The position numbers and the translations under genes are program-made. From positions 1 to 35,452 of the forward strand of contig JANQLP010000051.1 in assembly GCA_028280515.1 (NCBI GenBank): a stretch of DNA of 35,452 nt. The letters run 5' to 3'. Shown here piece by piece: positions 2,007 to 33,470 of this stretch; position 1 is the first letter of the stretch, and the number at the start of each line of letters is the position of its first letter. Under the pieces are notes generated by a model. The model did no database searches. It was not told the DNA's origin and saw only the letters and a program-made list of their open reading frames with translations. This stretch comes from Hyphomicrobiales bacterium. GTDB taxonomy: Bacteria > Pseudomonadota > Alphaproteobacteria > Rhizobiales > Methyloligellaceae.

Positions 2007-3208
2007 GCGCGTGGCTCACCATACTCGGCGTCGGACCGGAAGGTGTGGATGGCCTCACCGCGCCGGCACGGGCCCTGCTCGATACTGCCGATGTGGTCGT
2101 GGGTTCAGAGCGCGTGCTCAAAGACGTCTCCCTCGAAAAGGCCGAACTCCATGCCTGGTCATCGCCGATGGACGACACGCTCGACCAGCTTGACGGCTGG
2201 AAAGGACGGAACGTCGTTGTCTTCGCAACAGGCGATCCGATGCATTTTGGCGTCGGCGCCACGCTCGCCCGGCGCATTCCGCTGGAGGAGATGGCGGTCG
2301 TTCCCACGTCTTCGGCCTTCAGTCTTGCTGCCGCGCGACTCAAATGGCCATTGCAGGACGTGGAGACGCTATCGCTTCATGGCCGCCCCGTTCCCGCACT
2401 GCATCCTTTTGTGCAACCCGGCGCCAGGCTGCTCGTCCTGACGGCAGGCAACGAGACCGTCCATGCCGTCTCGGCTTTGCTGATGGCGCGCGGTTTCGGA
2501 AAGAGCGTGCTGAGCGTGCTTGAGCATATGGGCGGCGCGGACGAGCGTACCGTCACGCTGCCTGCCGATGAGTGCGAGGGCAAGGAGTTCGCCGATTTCA
2601 ACACGCTTGCCATCGAGTGCGTCGCCGGGTCGGATGCGCAAGTGCTTCCCCGCGTTCCGGGCTTGCCCGACGACGCCTTCAGGAATGACGGGCAACTCAC
2701 CAAGCGCGATATTCGGGCCATAACCCTTTCCGCGCTCGCCCCTTCGCCCAAGGCCCTGCTGTGGGACGTAGGAGCCGGTTGCGGCTCCATTGCCATCGAA
2801 TGGATGCGTTCGGCACCGGGTGCGCGGGCAATTGCCTTTGAGCGTCATGAAGACCGCATTAGAATGATCGCGGAAAATGCGGTGGCGTTGGGCGCGCCCG
2901 ATCTCGACATTGTGTCGGGGGATGTTGCAGACTCGCTGGGCGGGCATCCGGCGCCGTCTGCAGTGTTCCACGGTGGCGCGACGACGAATGATGATGTCTT
3001 CGAGACGTGTTGGAAGGCACTCGCGCCGGGCGGACGGTTTGTCTCGAACGCGGTGACGCTCGAAGGCGACGCGGCGCTGATGGCACGGCACGGAAAGCAT
3101 GGCGGCGAGCTTGTTCGCATCGACGTGTCCCATGTCGGGCCTGTCGGATCGCGCCGGGTCATGCGTCCGCGTATGAGCGTGCTGCAGTGGCGTGCGGTGA
3201 AGGGGTAA
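2003..3208 (+). CDS. cobL: precorrin-6Y C5,15-methyltransferase (decarboxylating) CobL
   Basis: CobL methylates C5 and C15 of precorrin-6B and decarboxylates the C12 acetate side chain. The 401-residue protein is a fusion of the CbiE and CbiT activities. The N-terminal tetrapyrrole methylase domain (about 1-205) begins with ILGVGPEG. The C-terminal Rossmann methyltransferase domain shows SAM motif I, WDVGAGCGS, at residues 254-262. The start is the ATG overlapping the cobH stop. A much longer upstream reading frame exists but overlaps cobH out of frame and is rejected. cobI follows 5 bases after the stop. Confidence 0.95.
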   Translation: MSAWLTILGVGPEGVDGLTAPARALLDTADVVVGSERVLKDVSLEKAELHAWSSPMDDTLDQLDGWKGRNVVVFATGDPMHFGVGATLARRIPLEEMAVVPTSSAFSLAAARLKWPLQDVETLSLHGRPVPALHPFVQPGARLLVLTAGNETVHAVSALLMARGFGKSVLSVLEHMGGADERTVTLPADECEGKEFADFNTLAIECVAGSDAQVLPRVPGLPDDAFRNDGQLTKRDIRAITLSALAPSPKALLWDVGAGCGSIAIEWMRSAPGARAIAFERHEDRIRMIAENAVALGAPDLDIVSGDVADSLGGHPAPSAVFHGGATTNDDVFETCWKALAPGGRFVSNAVTLEGDAALMARHGKHGGELVRIDVSHVGPVGSRRVMRPRMSVLQWRAVKG

Positions 3209-31574: not shown

Positions 31575-31699
31575 GTTGTCCGTTCACAAGCTGGTGTTGG
31601 CGGTCCGGCGATGTGTGACTCGCCGGGACGGCTATTCTAGAATTCATGGTCCTGTGATCAGGACGGCTCGTGCCCTCATCGACGGGGGAAGGAGGTCAC

Positions 31700-32317
31700 T
31701 TGGCGCACCGCTACCTTCTCATATTGCGCTATGCATTGATCAATATCGTTGCCGCCGGACTGGCGGTCGCCGCGTGGATACAGGGTTGGCTCGCGGGCAT
31801 GCTGGAGCCGAGCACGGCGATCCTCTCCGCCATCATTTTCGCGGTGTTTCTCTATGGTCTGGCTCTGTGCGGCAGCCGGATCTGGCAGACATCAGTCGCC
31901 CTCAATGACCTGAAGGAGGGCGGCAAGGCGGCTACCGCGCGCGCCGCCAGATACATGGCGTCGGCCCGCACCAAAGACGCGGAAAGCCGCGCCCTCCAGG
32001 TCACCACGTTACGGATGAAGCTCTCGCACCGCATCCAGATCGTGCGCACCATCGCCAACCTGCTGGTCTTTCTCGGCCTGATCGGCACGGTCATCGGTTT
32101 CATCATTGCGCTTTCCGGGGTCAACGCGCAGGCGGTCTCGCAGGCCGACAGCGTGGCGAGCATGGTGGCGACGCTGATCCAGGGCATGTCGATCGCCCTG
32201 TACACCACGCTGCTGGGCGCGGTGCTCAATGTCTGGCTGAACATCAATTACCGCGTTCTGGCGACGGGTACGGTCAATCTCATTTCCGAGATCGTCCGGT
32301 TTGGGGAGAGCAAGTGA
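31700..32317 (+). CDS. MotA/TolQ/ExbB-like proton-channel membrane protein
   Basis: A 205-residue inner-membrane protein with four predicted helices (about 5-30, 40-60, 115-140, 155-182) and a charged cytoplasmic loop between the second and third. The last two helices read LLVFLGLIGTVIGFIIAL and SMVATLIQGMSIALYTTLLGAVLNV, matching the channel-domain pattern (LLGTV-G, then A-L-TT-LG) of TolQ, ExbB and MotA. It would form a pentameric stator with the next product. TTG 31700 is chosen because AAGGAGG lies immediately upstream (spacing about 4); GTG 31670 would add 10 residues covering that site. A 6-bp stem (31649-31664) and TATTCT (31633) lie upstream. The stop overlaps the next gene (GTGA). 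Confidence 0.82.
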   Translation: MAHRYLLILRYALINIVAAGLAVAAWIQGWLAGMLEPSTAILSAIIFAVFLYGLALCGSRIWQTSVALNDLKEGGKAATARAARYMASARTKDAESRALQVTTLRMKLSHRIQIVRTIANLLVFLGLIGTVIGFIIALSGVNAQAVSQADSVASMVATLIQGMSIALYTTLLGAVLNVWLNINYRVLATGTVNLISEIVRFGESK

Positions 32318-32934
32318 CTCCGCTCGACGAATTTGACGACGACACCACGGATACTGTCTTTCGCGACGTCATCCTGCTCACGCTCGTCGGCTTCGTCGCC
32401 ATGGTCATCATGCTGCTGCCGCACATCACCAAGAAGGAAGAGGATTCCGAGGACCACAAGGCGCCCGGCAACGTGATCGTCGAACTGCACTGGCCGAGCG
32501 AAATGAACGTCGACGTCGATCTGTGGGTCAAGGGACCGAAATCGACGCCGGTGGGTTTCTGGAATCAGGGCAACGACGTGTTCAACCTGTTGCGCGACGA
32601 CCTCGGAACCGAGGGCGACGCGACCAACGAGAATTACGAGATCAGCTACAGCCGCGGCATTCCGCCGGGCGAGTACATCGTGAACGTTCACATGTATGGT
32701 ATCGTTCCGTCAGGCCTCGTGGTCCCGGCCAAGGTCGTCGTCTCCGTGCGCAGCAAGTATGAATCGGCACGGCAGATCCTCACGTCGACCGTGGAGCTGC
32801 GCCAGCGCAATCAGGAGGAAACCGCCTTCCGCTTCCGCCTGACGGCCGAAGGCGACCTCGTGGAGGGCAGCGTGTCGACCCTGCGCCGCCCGCTGATCAC
32901 CGGCTACGAACGCGGCCAGTCCAGGAAGGACTAG
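32314..32934 (+). CDS. ExbD-like membrane anchor with DUF2135-like periplasmic domain
   Basis: The protein has 206 residues: a short acidic cytoplasmic N-terminus, one transmembrane helix (about 19-38), and a soluble domain, probably periplasmic. The helix begins FRDVILLTLVGF, which lines up without gaps with ExbD FIDVMLVLLIIF, placing Asp18 at the proton-carrying aspartate. Residues 53-130 (VELHW, then VDVDLWVKGP, NYEISYSRG, IPPGEYIVNVHMYG) resemble the DUF2135/YfaP beta-sandwich rather than the usual ExbD/TolR or OmpA domain. These matches are from memory and by eye. The GTG start overlaps the channel gene stop, with GGGGAGAG upstream, so the two are translationally coupled. Confidence 0.75.
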   Translation: MTPLDEFDDDTTDTVFRDVILLTLVGFVAMVIMLLPHITKKEEDSEDHKAPGNVIVELHWPSEMNVDVDLWVKGPKSTPVGFWNQGNDVFNLLRDDLGTEGDATNENYEISYSRGIPPGEYIVNVHMYGIVPSGLVVPAKVVVSVRSKYESARQILTSTVELRQRNQEETAFRFRLTAEGDLVEGSVSTLRRPLITGYERGQSRKD

Positions 32935-32951
32935 ACCGAAAGGAACCCGCC

Positions 32952-33470
32952 ATGGACGTGATCTACTACATCTTTGCCGCGGCGGTCGGGACAGCCGCCC
33001 TGCTGGCGTCCATTGCGATCTGGGCACCGCGCAACACGCCTATCCGGGTCCTGGCGCTCGCCGCCATGACGCTGTTCCTGCCGATTGTCTACGTTCAGTT
33101 CGTCGGACTGCTGTCGAAGCCAAAGCCCGTCGAATGGGCATGGCTGGAACGCGACGTGGACCGCGCCGAAGTCCTGAGTGTCAGCTTCGACGAGGGCAAG
33201 GCGATCTATATGTGGTTGCGCCTCAACGGCATGATCGAGCCCCGCTTCTATTCGCTGCCGTGGCGCCAGCAGGACGCCGAGGACCTGGAAGACGCCATGG
33301 AGCAGGCCTCACGCACGCGCTCCAGCGTGATCGTCAAGGACCCGTTTTCCAGGCGTTCGCTGGAAGAACGCGGCGGTGTCACGGTAGAGATCATTCCACC
33401 GGCCACGCAGCCGCGCAAACAGCCGGTCGTGCCGCCGCGCGTCTACAACCCGCGCAGTCCGGAAATCTAA
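32952..33470 (+). CDS. uncharacterised two-helix membrane protein of the channel cassette
   Basis: A 172-residue protein I do not recognise. Two hydrophobic helices (about 5-24 and 31-53) form a hairpin. A soluble domain follows (about 60-145) with the segment AIYMWLRLNGMIEPRFYSLPW, then a proline- and arginine-rich C-terminus (PPATQPRKQPVVPPRVYNPR). No enzyme motif is visible. It begins 17 bases after the ExbD-like gene with GAAAGGAAC as ribosome site, and it is the last gene of the three-gene set, so a structural or regulatory role in the putative energised complex is likely. It converges on the class II aldolase gene 28 bases later. Confidence 0.78.
   Translation: MDVIYYIFAAAVGTAALLASIAIWAPRNTPIRVLALAAMTLFLPIVYVQFVGLLSKPKPVEWAWLERDVDRAEVLSVSFDEGKAIYMWLRLNGMIEPRFYSLPWRQQDAEDLEDAMEQASRTRSSVIVKDPFSRRSLEERGGVTVEIIPPATQPRKQPVVPPRVYNPRSPEI

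Follow-up and report, generated by a model that had tools for sequence, protein, structure and literature searches.

What machine is encoded by the three genes packed into positions 31700 to 33470 of a 35,452-nucleotide stretch of DNA from a Hyphomicrobiales bacterium (contig JANQLP010000051.1 of assembly GCA_028280515.1; this whole stretch is called the window below)? An initial annotation, made from the sequence alone, named a TolQ/ExbB/MotA-like channel gene, an ExbD-like anchor gene and an unrecognized two-helix membrane protein, and interpreted them as a self-contained ion-driven machine with a new output domain and a dedicated third subunit. The three-gene cassette is there, and its interpretation is supported by the results presented here. 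We consider it about an even bet (probability near 0.5) that the cassette, which phages carry as well as bacteria, encodes a 5:2-class motor that is complete in itself, has a TerD-like head and a dedicated third subunit, and acts on the periplasm or cell wall. The TerD-like fold, the phage copies and the grouping of the window copy with phage copies go beyond the initial annotation.

All three genes are open frames on the + strand, arranged head to tail at the places claimed for them. Gene 1 (31700..32317) starts with TTG at 31700, preceded by AGGAGGT at 31690-31696, and a longer frame from GTG 31670 is possible. Gene 2 (32314..32934) starts with GTG at 32314, giving a 4-base overlap with gene 1. 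Gene 3 (32952..33470) starts with ATG at 32952 after a 17-base gap.

The 205-amino-acid product of gene 1 passes the Pfam MotA_ExbB model (PF01618; 41.5 bits against a cut-off of 22.9), as expected of a TolQ/ExbB/MotA-like channel gene. A profile of 55 aligned gene 1 sequences, including that of the window, finds solved TolQ (2.6e-7), MotA, ZorA and ExbB chains. The protein has four hydrophobic helices, the second and third of which are separated by a K/R-rich stretch. Two threonines, T130 (kept in 49/55 aligned sequences) and T170 (54/55), correspond by eye to the GLFGT and ALFATALG motifs of the genome's own TolQ/ExbB-type protein. By its channel domain, gene 1 appears to belong to the 5:2 ion-driven motor class, and it stands outside the named Tol and Exb systems, as had been proposed. 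It reaches none of the curated cut-offs of named Tol, Exb, Mot and Zorya families, scoring 26.5 of 221 bits with the TolQ equivalog TIGR02796, 20.5 of 135 with the exbB2 model, and 25 of 100 and 21.9 of 500 with the ZorA models NF033915 and NF033917.

The best PADLOC matches of gene 1 are to ZorA models over the channel part (best E 9.9e-8). These matches would fit a Zorya-like machine for anti-phage defence or superinfection exclusion, which would detect the disturbance that an incoming phage causes in the envelope and block infection by means of its motor, and which phages would turn against competitors. The missed NCBIfam cut-offs speak against this idea, as does the failure of all 80 aligned gene 2 sequences to match any PADLOC model. 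Gene 1 is also short compared to ZorA, which has several hundred residues. Zorya and the cassette share a motor class, and further evidence on defence is considered below with the phage copies and bacterial neighbours.

Gene 2 encodes a membrane helix (residues 10-38) that carries an aspartate, D18 (codon 32365..32367, + strand), in 79 of 80 aligned sequences. D18 aligns on the ExbD aspartate, although over a short stretch (pairwise E values of 0.005 and 2e-4). A partner with one membrane helix bearing a conserved Asp is characteristic of the motor class, and gene 2 has the sequence features of such a partner. The name 'ExbD-like anchor' holds for this helix and fails for the periplasmic part. 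Alignment to ExbD covers the helix only, gene 2 has no match to the ExbD family PF02472, and an own-genome search that finds ExbD recovers three genes, gene 2 not among them. The output domain is new in the sense that it is not an ExbD domain. Assignment of gene 1 as the channel ring and of gene 2 as the axle is well supported. The helix of gene 2 would place the ion-binding Asp inside the ring, and ion flow, presumably of protons, would drive ring and axle together.

The periplasmic part of gene 2 (residues 53-176) is modelled confidently as an all-beta structure, a beta-sandwich whose best structural matches include TerD. Five acidic residues, D67, D69, D95, D96 and E109, are each invariant in the 80 aligned sequences and are coded within 32512..32640 (+ strand). 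By eye, the order of acidic motifs in the head resembles that of TerD (PF02342), a protein that binds Ca2+ according to the portion of PMC8123226 available. The axle would then end in a TerD-like beta-sandwich rather than an ExbD or OmpA-like domain, and its acid set most likely binds Ca2+ or another divalent ion. Unlike TerD, the head is tethered to a motor helix and is predicted to be periplasmic. A von Willebrand factor A (vWA) head was also considered for gene 2 and does not fit the all-beta model or the lack of any vWA Pfam match among the 80 sequences at E<=0.01.

A head with invariant acids and a likeness to a Ca2+-binding protein could also suit a regulated ion channel or sensor. Proton flux would then be gated by a divalent ion bound to the gene 2 head, and the protein would report stress of the envelope or of ion balance instead of generating force. 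The cassette keeps the full set of motor residues, which a simple gated channel would not need, and we regard this alternative as distinctly unlikely.

Database families add little to the description of gene 2. In Pfam the window protein is matched below cut-off only (RbmA-like_FnIII, 14.5 of 27 bits), and searches of PHROGs, NCBIfam and PADLOC at E values up to 1 give no match for it or for the gene 3 protein. DUF2135 (PF09906) weakly matches three of the 80 gene 2 sequences (best E 0.0012) but none of the remaining 77, and not the window protein. A phage family of 673 positions and unknown function, phrog_1735, matches 27 of the 80 (best E 4e-8); searched itself, this family also matches in E. 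coli among the control genomes.

Gene 3 remains an unrecognized two-helix protein, as described initially. Its model consists of a membrane hairpin (residues 2-24 and 30-53) and a small, mainly beta domain (pLDDT 91.3), and has no standout fold match. Across 77 sequences the inter-helix loop is positive (mean K+R of 1.22, compared with 0.01 at the N-terminus); under the positive-inside rule, this puts the domain on the periplasmic side. At E<=0.01, at most three of the 77 match Pfam, to families of unknown function. Gene 3 is probably a dedicated inner-membrane hairpin whose periplasmic domain would most likely couple to or regulate the gene 2 head.

The initial annotation had set co-occurrence in the same order across genomes as a test of the cassette, and the result is clear. 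We collected 251 gene 2 loci: 20 from whole genomes (from the host order, window included), 80 from GTDB contigs (the best 80 of 465 relatives), 145 from viral contigs (including the best 80 of 186 from one scan), five from phage records and one from a plasmid. A locus counted as ordered if genes 1 and 3 shared a strand with gene 2 and kept the order 1-2-3 within 6 kb. The order 1-2-3 is found at 237 of the 251 loci and at 217 of the 231 that lie outside the 20 used for profile building. Some viral contigs were fetched twice, and distinct gene 2 sequences were therefore counted as well, with order kept in 205 of 216. Both gaps between matched parts are shorter than 150 bases in 184 of the 237 ordered loci. 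The ordered trio spans bacterial chromosomes to unrelated phages, sometimes with other open reading frames (ORFs) inserted between members. In 77 control loci around ExbD, ExbB and TerD genes, the gene 1 profile found 36 canonical relatives, and the gene 2 and gene 3 profiles found nothing. This silence, together with the order kept elsewhere, argues that the trio does not arise by chance.

The claim that the third gene is dedicated to the set is supported as well. Among 199 genomes of the order, gene 2 occurs in 22, gene 3 in 24 and both in 21, such that gene 3 is matched in 21/22 genomes with gene 2 and in 3/177 without it. The one genome with gene 2 and no match to the survey gene 3 profile (G022) has a following two-helix ORF that is accepted by an earlier profile built with it. 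The three genomes with gene 3 only are G013, G090 and G166, and the matches in G013 and G166 are weak. In a phylum survey, 23 of 398 genomes match gene 2, 16 over the full length and seven by a part inside open frames of 577-1150 amino acids. Each of seven Azospirillum plasmid records has two gene 2 places, suggesting that some bacteria keep two copies.

Phages are a second home of the cassette. Of 50,697 phage records, 27 match, all from Rhizobium or Sinorhizobium phages and several of them GenBank/RefSeq duplicates. They include the 16-3 group (about 60 kb, with an integrase), 68-kb N3_19 types, 150-160-kb phages (such as Pootjesviridae N34) and the 171-kb RHph_I1_18, so that both temperate and non-temperate-looking phages are carriers. 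Across the five phage records that were read, no cassette gene bears a functional name. In phage 16-3 they are p038, p040 and p042, with other ORFs between members. In NV1.1.1, ORFs are also inserted between members, and one has a NUMOD3 motif, which occurs in homing endonucleases. Eight of ten neighbour proteins from six viral contigs match PHROGs, including tail, portal, head-closure, helicase, endolysin and exonuclease families; the single neighbour protein scanned from a 527-kb contig has no match. Two further associations were seen in viral loci. Phages related to 16-3 (29 loci; for example, L216 6720-7442 and L031 6208-7104) encode a trypsin-like protease, its N-terminus resembling a signal sequence, some 1.4 kb upstream of gene 2, and a GDP-mannose 4,6-dehydratase gene lies directly 3' of gene 3 in many marine-type viral contigs (27 viral loci, among them L128 2701-3718).

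Small membrane proteins in phages bring lysis to mind. Genes 1 and 3 might leak protons or form holin-like lesions that time phage release, and the window gene 3 has a weak, below-cut-off Pfam match to Phage_holin_2 (13.4 of 32 bits, E 0.098). One contig (L198) has an endolysin about 5 kb downstream of the cassette. The annotated neighbours in the five phage records are instead replication, repair, tRNA, protease or accessory genes, and the motor residues are conserved on chromosomes too, making a lysis module very improbable. Under the motor reading, the cassette would give phages control of the host envelope while they infect, for example to keep it intact or to exclude other phages.

Exchange of the cassette between phages and bacteria is well supported by a gene 2 tree of 120 sequences (79 viral and 41 bacterial). 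Viral and bacterial labels need four changes on this tree, at least three of which are forced by well-supported branches. The main bacterial clade (37 rows, support 100/99) sits among viral branches. The window copy, locus L002 and the Azospirillum locus L036 group with viral contigs L195 and L196 (98/87), apart from that clade. Because the tree is unrooted and its loci were chosen by motif patterns, it does not set the direction of transfer. As a tentative history, to which we give somewhat less weight than even odds, viruses of alphaproteobacteria and marine bacteria may have diversified a motor with ring, axle, coupler and Ca2+-type head, which bacteria, including the host of the window, acquired from phages several times for envelope machinery.

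Neighbours in bacterial relatives, scanned as one representative per cluster, point to the envelope. Genes found mostly in gammaproteobacterial loci are those for a YkuD L,D-transpeptidase (26 loci) and for a lipoprotein-like DUF302 protein (23), both upstream of gene 1, and for a VWA protein that has a membrane helix and ends in an FHA domain, immediately after gene 3 (24 loci, including L052 7124-8623). In mostly alphaproteobacterial loci, a lipoprotein-like gene (DUF3108-like, below cut-off) comes right after gene 3 (27 loci). Eighteen loci have a gene for a Sel1-repeat protein in front of gene 1. The motor would perform mechanical or conformational work in the periplasm, with peptidoglycan or an outer-membrane partner as its likeliest target.

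Places in the chromosome also bear on defence. Copies of the main bacterial clade recur beside tilS-, accA-, apt- and rodA-like genes (named by eye), housekeeping-like places rather than varied islands, which disfavours a roaming defence island for this clade. A Zorya-like role draws support from carriage by both kinds of phage and from phage 16-3, where the cassette is about 5 kb from the immX genes. On balance it is unlikely.

The same motor class could instead energize outer-membrane transport or secretion in the manner of ExbBD-TonB. Gene 3 would then be a short transducer: it has a membrane anchor and a periplasmic domain, and several phage copies also contain a long linker of low complexity. 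The 45 largest neighbour clusters include no recurrent receptor or transporter beside the cassette, and the genome has other Exb-type genes, so this role is improbable.

In the window, the eight flanking genes scanned are for metabolism or transport (an OppC-type permease, PEP mutase/ICL-like, AbrB, TauD, SDR, Aldolase_II, enoyl-CoA hydratase and CoA transferase). None is a TolA, TolB, Pal, TonB, flagellar or Zorya (including ZorC/ZorD) partner, in agreement with the initial annotation. Three ExbD genes and four other MotA_ExbB genes reside elsewhere in the genome, which makes the cassette an addition. Its GC content (0.625) is like that of its surroundings (0.636, sd 0.024, in 1771-base tiles). 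A weak promoter-like match 5' of gene 1 (31615..31643, + strand) is one found against 0.5 expected in shuffles and is not evidence of function.

Several observations weigh against the motor reading or parts of it. The gene 2 head has no detected sequence kinship to TerD: none of the 80 sequences matches PF02342 at E<=0.01, and profile comparison was negative with small TerD profiles (10 and 6 rows). Foldseek alone gives no PDB match for the head at E<=0.001. The proposal of a metal site consequently rests on the fold match and the conserved acids. The envelope neighbours differ from lineage to lineage, and the window copy and most phage copies lack them. Of the 14 loci without the ordered trio, four are merely cut by a contig end and the rest have room; five of these (L205-L208 and L237) have no downstream gene 3 match and five (L221, L227, L235, L236 and L239) no gene 1 match. 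Weak gene 3 matches upstream of gene 1 in L205 (6165-6416) and L208 (910-1149) hint at a rearranged cassette. G090 has a lone, stop-interrupted gene 3 (locus L330, G090:C1:1386500-1391500, at 2104-2679, minus strand); the 5 kb read there contain neither gene 1 nor gene 2, and this gene 3 is probably a cassette remnant. Finally, a co-evolution analysis was underpowered.

Among known systems, ExbBD of Ton and TolQR of Tol-Pal resemble the cassette in channel domain, threonine positions, anchor-helix Asp and gene order. They differ in having the ExbD/TolR periplasmic domain, and the cassette scores far below their equivalog cut-offs. The closest published idea, as far as the available text of PMC12204202 describes it, is a set of proposed motors of unknown function in which TolQ-like genes without tolR or exbD have ExbD-helix (TPH)-vWA partners. 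There too, a TolQ-like gene goes with a partner whose ExbD-like helix and conserved Asp are joined to a non-ExbD periplasmic domain. Those partners have vWA heads and are mostly heterologous pairs, whereas here one gene carries a TerD-like beta-sandwich, and the cassette adds a two-helix third gene and many phage copies. In the portions available, other articles review 5:2 motors (PMC9389320), report non-flagellar motors with extra domains of unknown function (PMC12505986) and note terD genes in huge gut phages (PMC12363816). No description of this cassette was found in the accessible text of the open-licence literature searched.

Motors of the ion-driven 5:2 class lie behind nutrient uptake, maintenance of the envelope, motility and one defence system. 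If the motor reading is correct, the cassette would add a widespread motor with a different head and a dedicated third part, whose many phage copies would show phages putting ion-driven machines to work in the envelope of the host. Cultivated phages, Rhizobium phage 16-3 among them, carry the cassette, and its role can therefore be tested by gene removal. It would also offer a compact system for asking how one axle design drives different outputs.
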